20,622 nucleotides of DNA from a virus. Positions 6,338-20,150 of the stretch are shown here, piece by piece (the first letter of the stretch is position 1; the number at the start of each line of letters is the position of its first letter). Made by a program: the position numbers and the translations under genes. Below the pieces are notes generated by a model. That model searched no databases. It saw nothing but the letters and a program-made list of their open reading frames with translations, and had not been told where the DNA came from. Location of the stretch: IMG/VR virus record IMGVR_UViG_3300037189_002565, positions 1-20,622 of that record; one strand, given 5' to 3'.

Positions 6338-8398
6338 TTATAAACCAGATAGTTTACGCATTCTAGCTAAGGCAGGGTCAATACTTTCACTTGCACCCAC
6401 TAATTTACCTATATTGTTATTTTTAACCTTTTCAGTTGGGCCTAATTGTCCAACACGCTTTTGGTTAGCATCTAATCCTTCTTCAACTTCTTCATGACCT
6501 GCATCTGCTTTAAGTTCTTTAACAAAATGGTTAATGATTTCTCCAACAACATCAACATTAATATGTAATGATTTAGCAATCTCTTTATCAGTTGCACCTT
6601 CTACTGACATTGTAATAATCATTGGTAATAAATGTTCCAATGCTGAATCAGTTGACCAATGGTCTTCATTATCTTTAGTTTCGTTTTTTATTCCTTGTTG
6701 TTGCTTTTCTCTTTCCCATTGTTCTCTATCCAATGGATTCATATCTTGTAGTTTTGTTGATTTACCTGCTTGCCCAGTACGAACACGATCTCTAAATTTT
6801 TCTAAATCTTGCTGATTATCTGTTTGAGAATCAGTTGTTGCAGCATCTAAATCTTTAAAAGAGTCCCTCGCACGTTTACTCATGCCTGGTTCTTCTTCAG
6901 TCAACCCTCTATCATGTTTAATATGTGCTTGACGTTCTCTATCTGCACGTTCTGCAGCATCACCTGAACTATCACGCTTCTTAGGAGCATCATATTGATC
7001 ACCACGTATGCCTTTATATACACGCTTACCTGTTTCTGGGTCTGTCTCAAAATGATGACGTTCGCCAGGACGTAAACTTTCTTGCTGCACCGGTGCTTGT
7101 TGTTCTGGAGCAGCTGGTTGTGGGGCCGGTGCTGGTTGAGGCATAGCATCTTCAATTGCTTGTAATAATTCATGATGATCATGATCACTTGACTGACTTA
7201 ACCAATGTATAATTGCCGGTCTCGCATCACCATCTCTATCTTGTTCTGCAATAGTTTTTAAGAAATCAAACAAGTCACGGTCTTGTAACTCATAACGTGA
7301 AAGGATATATTTAACATTTACTGCATCATCACCGAATGGAATTTCTTCTGCAAATAGTTTTGCTAAATCGTTTAGTTGATCTTGCTTATGGGGCTTTAGT
7401 TTCTCAGTGATTATACTTTCAGACCATTCTTCCAACTCTGCTACTTCATCCATCTTTTGTTTCTTTGGCTTCATTAGTTTTGCTAAGATTGGCATAGCAT
7501 GTTCTATTCTAGGATCGATACTTGAACTGACAAACATTTCTGCTAAATCAGGTTGACCAATACCCATATCTTCTTGTAATGTTGGTGTATAACTTTCAAA
7601 GTATTTGTTATATCCTTTTTTACCTGATAATTTATGTAATGTTTCACGTAGACTAGCATAATGATTCAATCCTTCAGTAACCAATTCTTGGGTGCTTTCA
7701 TTAAATTGACCATTACGAGTAGCACGAACAAATCCTGCCATCTTTGTATATTCTTCTACTAAACTGTCAACATGCATCCAACGGTCATCATTAACTTTAC
7801 CACCTTCTGCAATATGTCTTGCATACACACGTGCGATACCTGGTTTCCTAGTATTCAATAAGAATCTTTCACCATTTTGATTTTCTAAATAAATTCTTGC
7901 AATATTTCTATAACGTTGTTCACCTTCTTCAATGGCTCTGCTATGTTGAATTTTAATCTTTACATTAGGTACGCTATCATTATAGCTTGCTTTTTTACCC
8001 ATTGGGTAATAACCTTCATCTAACTTTTTAGTATCTTCACGTTTAGCCATTTCATCCTCTAAATTCTCAATATCATCTCTTTCAAAACCTAGTTGGTGAT
8101 CGTGGGCCCAGCCCTTTAAATATATTGCCATTTTATTAAATGACATATTACCTGAACTACTAGTGTTTGGACTGTCTAGTACATCATCTCCGTTGAATAG
8201 AACTAAGTTCTTACCAATAATTGCTGCATAAACTTCACCGTATACAATATCATCCATTTTGAAGTCAAACTTGAAAACGTCTGCTAATTTAGATAATGGA
8301 ACTTTCTTCCCTGAGGAGTCAAATCTGGTAGGTCTGTACCCTTGACTTTTAAGAAAATCGTATAGTTCGTCTTGTAATGAATCTTGGTTTATAGGCAT
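6338..8398 (-). CDS. Large late-expressed protein, probably virion-associated
   Basis: This is a 686-residue protein of unknown function. Residues 1-110 form a small folded region. Residues 155-275 hold a conserved-looking block (RNIARIYLENQNGERFLLNTRKPGIARVYARHIAEGG, then EEYTKMAGFVRATRNGQFNES) that I recall from hypothetical proteins of environmental T4-like phages. A Pro/Gln/Ala linker (419-440) is followed by a charged region. Residues 601-629 (GATDKEIAKSLHINVDVVGEIINHF) look like a helix-turn-helix. The C-terminus ends MRKLSGL, a motif shared with two other proteins here. It lies downstream of the terminase with a late-type motif, which supports a structural or internal role. The Shine-Dalgarno is weak (GAG). 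Confidence 0.85.
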   Translation of the reverse strand: MPINQDSLQDELYDFLKSQGYRPTRFDSSGKKVPLSKLADVFKFDFKMDDIVYGEVYAAIIGKNLVLFNGDDVLDSPNTSSSGNMSFNKMAIYLKGWAHDHQLGFERDDIENLEDEMAKREDTKKLDEGYYPMGKKASYNDSVPNVKIKIQHSRAIEEGEQRYRNIARIYLENQNGERFLLNTRKPGIARVYARHIAEGGKVNDDRWMHVDSLVEEYTKMAGFVRATRNGQFNESTQELVTEGLNHYASLRETLHKLSGKKGYNKYFESYTPTLQEDMGIGQPDLAEMFVSSSIDPRIEHAMPILAKLMKPKKQKMDEVAELEEWSESIITEKLKPHKQDQLNDLAKLFAEEIPFGDDAVNVKYILSRYELQDRDLFDFLKTIAEQDRDGDARPAIIHWLSQSSDHDHHELLQAIEDAMPQPAPAPQPAAPEQQAPVQQESLRPGERHHFETDPETGKRVYKGIRGDQYDAPKKRDSSGDAAERADRERQAHIKHDRGLTEEEPGMSKRARDSFKDLDAATTDSQTDNQQDLEKFRDRVRTGQAGKSTKLQDMNPLDREQWEREKQQQGIKNETKDNEDHWSTDSALEHLLPMIITMSVEGATDKEIAKSLHINVDVVGEIINHFVKELKADAGHEEVEEGLDANQKRVGQLGPTEKVKNNNIGKLVGASESIDPALARMRKLSGL

Positions 8399-14049: not shown

Positions 14050-14409
14050 TTACCCTTCTAGTGGCTCGTCATCACCTAGTTCAGCTATTGCTACGGGATT
14101 GATGCCAGATAATCTTTTTATTTGTACTAAATCGTCACCGCGTTCAGCATCTTTGTCATTATAAACATTGTCTACGTCTACTGCACGTTTTAATAATTCT
14201 AGTTTAGCTTGTAGTGGAGGTAGAAAATCGCCCAGTTCATCTTTAGCTTGTTCAGCTTTGGCAGCATTGTCATTGTTTTGAGTCTTAATCGAGTCGATGT
14301 GGTCAGTAGTATTTTGAATACCATTGTCTGACATAGGAGGAGCAACGTTTTTGCCCTCAATACTTGAAAGAGCATCTGCTAGACCTCTTAATAATTCGCT
14401 TATATTCAT
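14050..14409 (-). CDS. Hypothetical 119-residue protein with KRLSG motif
   Basis: This is a charged, mostly helical protein of unknown function. A conserved-looking core DFLPPLQAKLELLKRAVDVDNVY (61-83) is followed by LVQIKRLSGINPVAIAEL (94-111). I recall similar proteins near tail fibre genes of environmental T4-like phages, without a known role. The KRLSGI segment (98-103) matches a motif in the 686- and 92-residue proteins. AAAAGGA lies 6 bases before the ATG. It sits directly upstream of the long fibre and downstream of the beta-rich paralogues, so a virion role is likely. Confidence 0.82.
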   Translation of the reverse strand: MNISELLRGLADALSSIEGKNVAPPMSDNGIQNTTDHIDSIKTQNNDNAAKAEQAKDELGDFLPPLQAKLELLKRAVDVDNVYNDKDAERGDDLVQIKRLSGINPVAIAELGDDEPLEG

Positions 14410-15025: not shown

Positions 15026-15033
15026 GTATTTAG
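15026..15033 (-). promoter_or_regulatory. Late-type motif CTAAATAC
   Basis: CTAAATAC on the minus strand, 19 bases before the ATG of the 94-residue gene. The stop codon TAA of the upstream 92-residue gene (15030-15032) lies inside it. It is one base off the ATAAATAC core. Confidence 0.5.
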
Positions 15034-15308
15034 TCTTGGTAAGGTTTCTCACCAGTCATGTATGGCAAACTGAACCACAATTGGAACCATTCAGGGGTAC
15101 CGGACTGAATGTTATGTTTCTTCATTAATTCCCCTTTTTCCGTCCCTGTAATGCTCATATTCATTCCCATGCAGACTGATTCATTAGGGATTCCTGCAAG
15201 TCTTTTCATATCAGCTATAGATTCTATAGCATTATCCGGTAAGGAAGCGGTTTTGACTTTATCAAAACCGTTCATTAGATTTGCTTGTTTCCATACATCA
15301 AAGGTCAT
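15030..15308 (-). CDS. Hypothetical 92-residue protein with MKRLAG motif
   Basis: This is a small protein of unknown function. It contains DMKRLAGIPNE (33-43), sharing the KRLAG/KRLSG core with the 119- and 686-residue proteins, and an aromatic C-terminal part TPEWFQLWFSLPYMTGEKPY. No Shine-Dalgarno is visible before the ATG at 15308. An ATAAATAC motif ends only 3 bases upstream, so either the mRNA is leaderless or the true start is elsewhere; Met12 is an alternative but has no good ribosome site either. It lies between the methyltransferase and the beta-rich pair. Confidence 0.75.
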   Translation of the reverse strand: MTFDVWKQANLMNGFDKVKTASLPDNAIESIADMKRLAGIPNESVCMGMNMSITGTEKGELMKKHNIQSGTPEWFQLWFSLPYMTGEKPYQD

Positions 15309-16065: not shown

Positions 16066-16073
16066 TATTTATT
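16066..16073 (-). promoter_or_regulatory. Late-like motif AATAAATA before methyltransferase
   Basis: AATAAATA on the minus strand, 48 bases before the methyltransferase ATG, overlapping the TAA stop of the 123-residue gene. A transcript from here would start near 16059 and carry the complete leader hairpin. Confidence 0.4.
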
Positions 16074-16440
16074 TTCCATAACCCTTAAACGGTTTGACTG
16101 GGCTAGATTTGTTAATGCCCTCTGGCTCTTGACTCTTGCTATATGGAACCACATCTTTATGATCGGTCGGTATTGTTTTTGTAGCTTGAATCATCATGTT
16201 GTATTCTTCTTCAGTATATGGATGAACTGTATTATATTTCTCTACAAAACTAGCATGATCCATTTCTACTGCATCTTGGCTCTTACCGTCAGCACAAGCC
16301 ATAGCCATCCATAAACGATTCATATGATAGATACGATCATATCCACCTACATCACGTACTTTATGAATACCAGGTGTCACTGCTGCTGCATCTTTATGCA
16401 TAGTGCCTTCAGCTTCAGTTATAAATTCTTTTGCTCTCAT
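16069..16440 (-). CDS. Small protein with capsid-targeting-like N-terminus (1)
   Basis: This is a 123-residue protein. The N-terminus MRAKEFITEAEG resembles the T4 capsid-targeting sequence of internal head proteins (MKTYQEFIxEA), including the IxE motif cut by the prohead protease gp21; cleavage would follow Glu9. The core (DRIYHMNRLWMAMACADGKS, then KYNTVHPYTEEEYNMM) resembles hypothetical proteins I recall from environmental T4-like phages. The C-terminus SSPVKPFKGYGK is shared with the neighbouring 125-residue protein. It starts 1 base after that gene, with AAAGGG 8 bases before the ATG. The inferred role is a protein packed inside the head; the function after injection is unknown. Confidence 0.83.
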   Translation of the reverse strand: MRAKEFITEAEGTMHKDAAAVTPGIHKVRDVGGYDRIYHMNRLWMAMACADGKSQDAVEMDHASFVEKYNTVHPYTEEEYNMMIQATKTIPTDHKDVVPYSKSQEPEGINKSSPVKPFKGYGK

Positions 16441-16441
16441 T

Positions 16442-16819
16442 TTAATACCCTTTAAATCCTTTGATTGGACTGTTCTTTCCTACATCACTAGTTTCTTCAC
16501 TATCAACTGTGCTTAAACGTTTTTTACCACTCATGCCCATTTGCTTTAATGCATCATCTATGATATTATCTAAATCTATGCCATAGCTAACTACAATTTC
16601 ATTTTCTCCCCATGCACTTTGTGCTACGAACTGAGGTACATTATCTTCTGCTCGTTTCTTTGCGCCTTTAGCTCCTGCAATTGCTACACCAAATCTATAT
16701 TGTAGGTATGGATCCTGATTCTTTAATTCAGGAATTGCATATGTTGCAGGTAGTGCATCAGCAACATCTGGTTGAAGTGATCCTGTTCTACCTTCATTTA
16801 TAAATTCATTTGCTCTCAT
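16442..16819 (-). CDS. Small protein with capsid-targeting-like N-terminus (2)
   Basis: This is a 125-residue protein. It starts MRANEFINEGRTG, nearly the same as the next gene's MRAKEFITEAEG, with an IxE cleavage-type site after Glu9. The core (ALPATYAIPELKNQDPYLQYRFGVAIAGAKG, then WGENEIVVSYGIDLDNIIDDALKQMG) is unrelated to that neighbour and resembles hypothetical proteins of environmental T4-like phages. It ends KNSPIKGFKGY, again matching the neighbour. The start overlaps the upstream fibre gene's stop (ATGA, 16816-16819). Shared ends with different cores suggest common targeting signals on different cargo. Confidence 0.83.
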   Translation of the reverse strand: MRANEFINEGRTGSLQPDVADALPATYAIPELKNQDPYLQYRFGVAIAGAKGAKKRAEDNVPQFVAQSAWGENEIVVSYGIDLDNIIDDALKQMGMSGKKRLSTVDSEETSDVGKNSPIKGFKGY

Positions 16820-17656: not shown

Positions 17657-18529
17657 ATGTCAGACCCCAAATTTTTTAGAAAATACTTAGATATCATCAG
17701 TGAAGCTACCCCTGCACAACCAACACAAAAGCAGATTGATGCATATAATAGTTCAGAAACTAACATTAATAAATCCAGTGACAAATTTGCTGCAGGTGAC
17801 AATGTTGGGGGTGCAGTAAATGCAGCTAAAGCCGCAAACGATATAGCTAATGCAGCTGGTATGTCATTTGGTGATAAAGTTGGACTTGCTGGAACAGCAG
17901 TCAAAGCCGGTGGACGAGCTGGTTTAGAATATATGAAATCTAGAGATCCAAATCGAGCAACCGCCGTAGCCGGCGCAAGTGTCGCCAAGGATATGGTTGA
18001 ACCAATGAATAAAATGGTCAACGATCCAAAATTTAATAAAGACTTCAATGCAGGGGTAACGGCAGCAAAAGGTAATCCCAATGCTGATCTTGCAACTCAA
18101 CAAATGGCAGCGGATGTTGAAGCCGGCAAAATGAGTGCAGATAGTTTTAAAGGGGCTATTAATAGAGCTAGTAATAGGGCACAAGCAGTACTAGACGATC
18201 CTGGACAAGCAGAAAAAATGATGGCTTTGCAGGGTGATGATAGTCCTTATATTCAACATTCTGGACTTACAAAAGCAAATACTGCAGAGTTAGATCCAAT
18301 GAAGGCACAAGCTGTTCAAGGAACACTAAAGCCAGTTGAATATACACCGGCACCTATTGGTGGCAGTCCGCAGCAAGCAGCAGCACCAGAGACGCCTGCA
18401 GCACCAGCAGCACCACTAAAGGTTTATACAGGTGCACCTGCTTCCGTAGATACTAGAGATGATACAGGTGATAATGTAACAGAGGAAGATAAAGAATTAG
18501 ATAGAATTAAAAAATTAATTAGAAAGTGA
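17657..18529 (+). CDS. Ala-rich protein with capsid-targeting-like N-terminus
   Basis: This is a 290-residue protein of unknown function. The N-terminus MSDPKFFRKYLDIISEATP has an amphipathic basic/aromatic start and an I-x-E|A site (after Glu16), resembling T4 capsid-targeting sequences and prohead-protease sites. Residues 30-180 are rich in Ala, Gly, Asn and Lys with predicted helices (GGAVNAAKAANDIANAAG, VAGASVAKDMVEPMNKMV). A Pro/Ala linker (about 225-255) precedes a charged helical tail ending DRIKKLIRK. No transmembrane segment is clear. AAGGAA precedes the ATG. It is encoded 4 bases before the exported nuclease under a late-type promoter, so the two are probably made together. It could be an internal head protein or a DNA-compacting protein. 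Confidence 0.83.
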   Translation: MSDPKFFRKYLDIISEATPAQPTQKQIDAYNSSETNINKSSDKFAAGDNVGGAVNAAKAANDIANAAGMSFGDKVGLAGTAVKAGGRAGLEYMKSRDPNRATAVAGASVAKDMVEPMNKMVNDPKFNKDFNAGVTAAKGNPNADLATQQMAADVEAGKMSADSFKGAINRASNRAQAVLDDPGQAEKMMALQGDDSPYIQHSGLTKANTAELDPMKAQAVQGTLKPVEYTPAPIGGSPQQAAAPETPAAPAAPLKVYTGAPASVDTRDDTGDNVTEEDKELDRIKKLIRK

Positions 18530-19392: not shown

Positions 19393-19421
19393 AAAAAAGC
19401 CCCTTAATCGGGGCTTTTTTT
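19393..19421. terminator. Bidirectional rho-independent terminator
   Basis: AAAAAA-GCCCC-TTAATC-GGGGC-TTTTTTT: a 5-bp GC stem with A and T flanks, extended by A-T pairing, effective on both strands. It separates the converging nuclease (plus, ends 19391) and o-spanin (minus; stop codon 19420-19422 overlaps the T run). Confidence 0.93.
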
Positions 19422-19683
19422 ATTTTACTGAATCAAAATTCTTTTTCTGTTCAGTATACCATTCATTCCAAAGTTCAACAGTAAGTTGACATTCTTTATA
19501 TGTAGAATAGTTCTCTGCTACATTACTAACTAAATCACTTAACTTTTCAGTGTCAGTAGGTAATTGCTTAAGATCAGGACATTTTGCTGTTAGTTCTGCT
19601 GGTACTGCAGGAAATGTACGTTTAACTGGAACAGTAGTTGAACAGCCAGTTAATAATAAAGTGAGGATTAATAATTTTTTCAT
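19420..19683 (-). CDS. o-spanin lipoprotein (Rz1-like)
   Basis: This 87-residue protein has a lipoprotein signal MKKLLILTLLLTGC (lipobox LLTGC, lipidated Cys14). Mature residues 15-87 contain FPAVPAELTAKCPDLK and NYSTYKECQLTVELWNEWYTEQKK, with Cys35 and Cys65 possibly disulfide-linked. The lipoprotein signal, small size and 4-base ATGA overlap with an upstream membrane/coiled-coil gene fit the outer-membrane subunit of a two-component spanin, which fuses inner and outer membranes in the last step of lysis. It is larger and less Pro-rich than lambda Rz1. No holin or endolysin gene is in the window. Confidence 0.8.
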   Translation of the reverse strand: MKKLLILTLLLTGCSTTVPVKRTFPAVPAELTAKCPDLKQLPTDTEKLSDLVSNVAENYSTYKECQLTVELWNEWYTEQKKNFDSVK

Positions 19684-20150
19684 TGTTTTTCATCCTTCTT
19701 TAATGGACCAACTTCAACGGTAGCTTTAATTGGCTTTGCTGCTTCATTTAAAATACTGATTGCTGAAGGTGAAACTTTACAATCTTTATCCATATTTGCA
19801 GCCTCTTTGACAATCTTTTCTTGTATAACTATTCTGTCCTGTTTAATAACTTTGACTTTAGTTACATAAACTTTCTTAATTTTGGTATTAGTAGTAGCAA
19901 TCTTTTTCTCAGATTCAGCTACTTTGGCTTCTAGTTCTTTAACTCTTTCTAGCCAAATATTGTTGTTGAAGTTAGCACCTTCTATAAACAATCCAAATAC
20001 TAATAATAGCAATGAAACTATTTTAATCGGTAAACTGTATCTACCTACGAAAGGTACAAATCCTAAAAAGAATGCTATAATTAGTCCAGCGAATCCTGCT
20101 AGACATATTGCATGAAAAACCCAGTCGGGTAAAAATTGAAGTATCCACAT
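19680..20150 (-). CDS. i-spanin-like membrane/coiled-coil protein (Rz-like)
   Basis: This 156-residue protein has hydrophobic segments at about 10-34 and 41-58, then a periplasmic-type coiled coil (about 66-118, ERVKELEAKVAESEKKIATTN) and a C-terminal tail with Cys124 (DKDCKVSPSAISILNEA). The helical stalk and overlap with a lipoprotein gene identify it as the probable inner-membrane spanin subunit. Lambda Rz has one membrane segment. Two here would put the N-terminus in the periplasm if the coiled coil is periplasmic. AGGGA lies 12 bases before the ATG, an unusually long spacing, with AATAAATA in between. Confidence 0.75.
   Translation of the reverse strand: MWILQFLPDWVFHAICLAGFAGLIIAFFLGFVPFVGRYSLPIKIVSLLLLVFGLFIEGANFNNNIWLERVKELEAKVAESEKKIATTNTKIKKVYVTKVKVIKQDRIVIQEKIVKEAANMDKDCKVSPSAISILNEAAKPIKATVEVGPLKKDEKQ

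Follow-up and report, generated by a model that had tools for sequence, protein, structure and literature searches.

We find that two adjacent small proteins encoded in a 20,622-nucleotide stretch of viral DNA (hereafter the window) begin with the same segment, MRAxEFIxE, and that this segment is most likely the capsid-targeting and cleavage signal of an uncultured, T4-like lineage of jumbo phages, with the two proteins, A and B, being internal head proteins. We put the probability of this reading at roughly 0.84. The window is a 20.6 kb piece of an uncultured virus with T4-like genes, and the nearest relative of its large terminase subunit (51%) is that of the Pseudomonas phage PA5oct. We propose that residues 1–7 of the segment (basic R2, A3, E5, F6, and I7) would bind the assembling prohead core, that a gp21-type protease would cut the (I/L/V)xE at residues 7–9 past Glu9, and that cleavage would free the mature protein inside the head ahead of DNA packaging. 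A and B would then be two paralogous internal head proteins present in the virion, and the packed proteins would exit with the DNA at infection. Relatives put the same segment on many further proteins, apparent host-modifying enzymes included.

Both genes lie on the minus strand, with 1 nt between the two ORFs. Protein A (16069–16440, 123 aa, ATG start) begins MRAKEFITE|A, and protein B (16442–16819, 125 aa, ATG start) begins MRANEFINE|G. A sequence-only reading had singled them out as two neighboring small proteins with T4-like starts, and this stands: both ORFs are real, and both follow MRAxEFIxE, close to the MKTYQEFIAE|A of T4 IPII and IPIII. We refer to this segment as the label. The label of A occupies 16414..16440 (−) with predicted cleavage past Glu9 (ITE|A), which would leave a mature protein of 114 aa (16072..16413 (−), AEGTMHK..., pI 6.3). 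The label of B occupies 16793..16819 (−) with predicted cleavage past Glu9 (INE|G), which would leave 116 aa (16445..16792 (−), GRTGSLQ..., pI 5.1), a paralog of A.

T4 gp21 cleaves past L/I-x-E, and the first ten residues of IPIII are enough for packaging in T4; residues 4 and 7 matter in targeting and residues 8 and 10 in processing, and Asp10 permits targeting while blocking processing, so the two functions are separable (PMC9026906). When the label is aligned with MKTYQEFIAE, F6 corresponds to F7, I7 to I8, and E9 to E10, and the ITE and INE of the window are the short N-terminal (L/I)xE with which a T4-type capsid-targeting sequence ends. The label shares with the start of IPII and IPIII a basic residue 2, the EFIxE core, Glu at P1, and a length of about ten residues, together with a gp21-type protease in the genome and reuse across different cargo. 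Unlike the T4 segment, the label is one residue shorter, with MRA in place of MKTYQ, and the labeled cargo families are unrelated to IPI–IPIII. The mature parts gave no sign of homology to IPI–IPIII either through Pfam and PHROG, where neither A nor B had a match, or among phage records including T4; five different queries found no A/B homolog among 50,697 cultured phage records, T4 included. The window pair is also mildly acidic rather than basic as mature IPI–IPIII are; median pI values are 8.8 for the A subfamily and 6.3 for the B subfamily.

The cores of A and B had been described as unrelated to each other, and here the comparison of families says otherwise. With the label and the last 12 residues stripped, the A/B members join into one family at E<1e-6, and a profile–profile comparison of the A and B subfamilies gives a probability of 99.9% (E 6.8e-33, 127 columns). 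A C-terminal motif, S.E..D...SPxxxFKGY, is common to both and forms a second shared module, which in the window is SQEPEGINKSSPVKPFKGYGK in A (16072..16134 (−)) and SEETSDVGKNSPIKGFKGY in B (16445..16501 (−)). Within it, E105 and S113 are invariant and S103 is nearly so in A (77 sequences), and E109 and S117 are invariant and S107 and P118 nearly so in B (81 sequences). Relatives are encoded in at least 84 IMG/VR stretches for A and 17 for B, some of them in tandem arrays of two to four A/B-type genes. Among family members found by homology, 88/96 start with M(R/K)AxEF(I/L/V)xE, and most of the remaining 8/96 have another label of like layout or an altered start codon. Because A and B are paralogs, their shared N-terminus inside the window is no independent coincidence and no proof of a tag.

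The evidence for a tag comes from outside the A/B family. The exact DNA pattern for MRAxEFIxE occurs in at least 120 IMG/VR stretches, and nearly all of the matches that were read in their loci are at ORF starts. Across all loci fetched up to that point, M(R/K)Ax(E/D)F(I/L/V)xE heads 293 distinct proteins, and past residue 9 these fall into about 31 cargo clusters, of which A/B is one. When 79 labeled proteins other than A/B were aligned, mean column identity was 6%, with only M1, A3, F6, and E9 invariant, although invariance at label positions is partly by construction, the motif being the search key. Several unrelated labeled genes per genome are found in three large contigs of 333–374 kb. 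The idea of a generic tag on different cargo is well supported by these unrelated groups, the same segment heading unrelated cargo as in T4-type capsid-targeting sequences, but not by the A/B pair that first suggested it. A loose N-terminal (F/Y)(I/L/V/M)xE motif counted genome-wide is weakly informative, T4 itself being barely above chance; the tight MRA form is the distinctive one.

Two simpler explanations can be judged at this point. If A and B, which really are paralogs, had merely kept a common N-terminus from duplication and resembled T4 by chance, the label should not head about 30 other cargo groups that are dissimilar to A/B and to each other, nor should some A homologs swap in another label of like layout. 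Paralogy alone was rejected because of the label on unrelated cargo groups, and we regard it as very improbable. Alternatively, 27 conserved bases at gene starts would suit an element that acts as nucleotide sequence, for instance in translation or recombination, and not as a peptide. However, the codons at the conserved positions Ala3, Glu5, Ile7, and Glu9 change freely to synonymous ones, which indicates selection on the peptide and thus conservation in protein rather than DNA. A DNA-level element was rejected on this ground and has a negligible probability.

Labeled genes can also cluster. Three consecutive ones at locus L251 (5135–7946), one for an ADP-ribosyltransferase and one for a kinase-like protein among them, form a candidate operon of injected effectors, and four lie near one another at locus L254 (1405–5690).

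Since the searched positions are invariant partly by construction, we examined Glu9 in searches where it was not required. Residue 9 is Glu in 304 of 314 label-start ORFs, and in the loci found by homology it is kept in 122 of 124. In six of the ten ORFs that lack Glu9, a new (I/L/V)xE occurs inside the first 14 residues (MRAKEFVILKE, MRAREFITLKE, MRASEFISAQLME, MRAREFVSAVLSE, MRAREFITVTE, and MRAQEFISTPVLLE), as if the targeting half and the cutting half were separate in natural variants. Among the ORFs that the exact-pattern scan did not supply, Asp takes the place of Glu in 10/97 cases at position 5 and in 0/87 at position 9 (Fisher p=0.002), which is what a requirement for Glu at P1 would predict. 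From these patterns, Glu9 appears to behave like a gp21 cleavage residue, with the preference predicted for a T4-type capsid-targeting sequence in which P1 is Glu and Asp is not processed. An enrichment of small residues at P1′ is present in A and B and absent in other cargo, and because it is limited to A and B, we dropped it as general support.

The major capsid protein of these phages has a comparable, predicted cleavage site. In gp23 of relatives, LLAE|S, YLAE|S, or LVE|S stands directly before the part that aligns to mature T4 gp23, and the junction reads YLAE|SATSGATSAGNIATLN, with LAE|SATAGATSAGNIAT as the putative cleavage site. The peptide SATAGATSAGNIAT is also found directly behind (I/L/V)xE in other, small proteins, among them the labeled MRANEFIKE|TASAGATTSGNIAVV and MKIREIVE|SATAGATSAGNVAIG, and some A proteins terminate in KVKE|SASAGATSSGSVAT. 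With SATAGATSAGNIAT standing behind the label as it does in gp23, the label occupies the place of the gp23 propeptide. The T4 protein gp61.1 (MKTFKEFIKE|DMVAGDSGGNPENISIGTTSG) may be the T4 counterpart of the SATAGATSAGNIAT-bearing proteins. Near-copies of SATAGATSAGNIAT past (I/L/V)xE, in short proteins or in C-terminal extensions, were seen at loci L239 (7403–7597), L229 (11641–11838), L219, L096, L099, L045 (9544), L097 (635), L064, L075, and L180.

In relatives, A and B lie among late genes, with a terminase nearby in 22/49. A spanin-like pair is near the A gene in 26–27/49, and a 251-aa tail-fiber-connector-like protein and a 92-aa protein are near A/B in 23/49 and 22/49, respectively. 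The window itself has small lipoprotein-like and membrane-helix proteins at 19420–20150 that look like a spanin pair. Structure models of A and B are moderately confident (pLDDT 81–83, pTM 0.5) and mostly extended, with few helices and little compact fold. Both models are least certain at residues 1–10; in the AlphaFold model of A, pLDDT is 81 overall and 55 for residues 1–10. A fold search with the A model against the PDB and viral models returned no meaningful match, and A2 and A3, used as profile queries against solved structures, returned none.

Such features would also suit a label that binds the prohead core and stays uncut, or that is the N-terminal docking segment of head-structural proteins residing in the shell: A/B show good conservation and neighbor the terminase and other late genes, the models have little compact fold, and in T4 a protein can be targeted without being cleaved (PMC9026906). 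An uncut label, however, does not account for a P1 that is strictly Glu and never Asp, for the (I/L/V)xE that is re-formed where Glu9 is missing, or for a junction layout identical to that of gp23, and we hold it to be improbable, if the least improbable of the alternatives. That A and B are internal head proteins cut by gp21 is, by comparison, quite probable.

The MRA form is not the only label. Family members without it start MRINELISE, MKIKELIVE, MNIYEIITE, or MKITDIITE, and MKINELLNE|S is found elsewhere in genomes with the MRA label. T4 gp24 starts MAKINELLRE|S, resembling these sister labels, and at 427 aa it is ten residues longer than its 417-aa chain in 5vf3. This gp24 propeptide has the layout of the sister label M(K/R)INELLNE|S, which also occurs on variant A homologs; gp24, however, is the vertex shell protein, and the labeled proteins are not known as such.

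PA5oct lacks the MRA form. Two of its annotated structural proteins with ESI-MS/MS evidence have starts of the sister type, namely gp333 (MKINDIITE), whose gene lies between the portal and protease genes, and gp246 (MKIKDILVE). The same mass-spectrometry list also includes ribonucleotide reductase and thymidylate synthase, which are likely non-virion, and enrichment of the N-terminal motif in virion versus non-virion proteins of PA5oct was not significant with a regular expression that missed gp246 because of its GTG start. Given the listed metabolic enzymes and the enrichment result, we take the PA5oct evidence as supporting rather than decisive.

Several kinds of domain follow the label. An ART-PolyVal domain together with GNAT is found in one labeled protein (L115:2862–3650) and ADPrib_exo_Tox in another (L251:6643–7242); GNAT proteins, DUF6321, and DUF6934 also occur among the labeled cargo, with weak matches to Kinase-PolyVal and ParB. 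Nine labeled proteins have endolysin-like GH19 domains, which would be unexpected for head cargo. At L175 (2992–3609) and L152 (3512–4144), a Tat-like RRGFL signal stands straight after the label (IDRRGFLGALGAGAMAAAG), with GH19 next in L175, and cleavage of the label would put the Tat-like segment at the new N-terminus.

For polyvalent proteins that contain such domains, injection together with the DNA was predicted by Iyer and colleagues (PMC5512222). Labeled cargo with ART-PolyVal, Kinase-PolyVal, or GNAT domains resembles those proteins, which are, however, defined by domain mixing and have no common packaging label. The ADP-ribosyltransferase domains on labeled proteins likewise recall T4 Alt, a packaged ADP-ribosyltransferase, although the labeled transferases belong to other families and Alt has another propeptide. 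In phage P1, the capsid-targeting region of DarB offers a parallel as an N-terminal signal sufficient for packaging a reporter in the head (PMC9024508), but it is longer than nine residues, no consensus is shared among Dar proteins, and the assembly system is a different one.

The sequence-only reading had proposed checking whether the label co-occurs with a gp21-type protease, and it does. Of the 17 label-bearing contigs that reach 150 kb, 16 encode an S77-family protease; of 17 shorter ones two do, consistent with short contigs being fragments. One 265 kb contig with the A/B family, possibly incomplete, has none. Eight cultured T4-type phages have an S77 protease; phiKZ and phage G do not, and the label is absent from phiKZ and from G as read (the first 400 kb of G). 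A viral contig of 525 kb, G025 (locus L217), encodes A/B family members along with an S77 protease; phage G is 498 kb. The S77 search of PA5oct gave one match only, and a second annotated head maturation protease of that phage, gp212 (NC_071039, 180349–181020), lies far from the gp21-type gene of the head cluster.

All label carriers belong to one lineage, and co-occurrence of label and protease is for that reason confounded by descent. The label might lead elsewhere than the head, to a tail, a membrane, or an infection structure, with the gp21 co-occurrence reflecting shared ancestry, and the cargo that bears GH19 or Tat signals could act at the envelope. What argues against a destination other than the head is that the label matches the T4 capsid-targeting layout, the gp24 start, and the gp23 cleavage junction; we consider such a destination quite improbable, slightly less so than paralogy alone.

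A and B are probably, though with less assurance than their packing in the head, ejected with the DNA. In T4, IPIII is reported to be necessary for infecting E. coli ECOR17, and IPI blocks GmrSD (PMC9391042). A direct part of A and B in counter-defense is nonetheless unlikely, and a head-assembly or DNA-organizing role is more likely: the pair lacks the basic character of T4 internal proteins, and the conservation of the family, high for a defense inhibitor, suits a structural part in the head no less well.

Two further observations concern other proteins. A 290-aa protein at 17657–18529 (+) in the window begins with MSDPKFFRKYLDIISE|A, which could be a further (I/L)xE start; its gene is on the strand opposite its neighbors and adjoins that of a DNA/RNA non-specific endonuclease whose N-terminus is signal-like. 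An (I/M)KRLAG(L/I)-like motif ends the scaffold gp22 in G003, G014, G013, PA5oct, and Phosso and is seen again in further head or virion proteins, in the window at 15030–15308, 14050–14409, and 6338–8398 (C-terminus). It is in slight excess (3–6 per genome versus 0.4–0.8 in shuffled sequence) and is absent from T4.

Capsid-targeting sequences are already known from T4, and a review suggested that they let T4-like phages gain cargo (PMC9026906). In the literature we covered, which took in few subscription journals, we found no description of the MRA label or of the A/B families. So far as that literature shows, what is new is the form of the label, its two dialects, and its presence on about 30 groups of cargo across uncultured jumbo phages, and likewise a cutting half that appears separable among natural variants, as well as the putative copying of a capsid-protein peptide onto cargo. 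Somewhat short of even odds, we think, is the wider possibility that this lineage loads varied enzymes through a modular address-plus-cleavage code in two dialects (MRAxEFIxE and MKINELLxE), such that the injected set could be read from the genome and SATAGATSAGNIAT-bearing cargo may dock onto the shell once cut.

Should the label prove to be a packaging signal, the likely injected proteins of many uncultured phages could be listed from sequence, and such a list would include ADP-ribosyltransferases, acetyltransferases, and many unknown families. The labeled set would provide candidates for screens of early host takeover and counter-defense, and the natural label variants would be a test bed for which residues target and which get cut.
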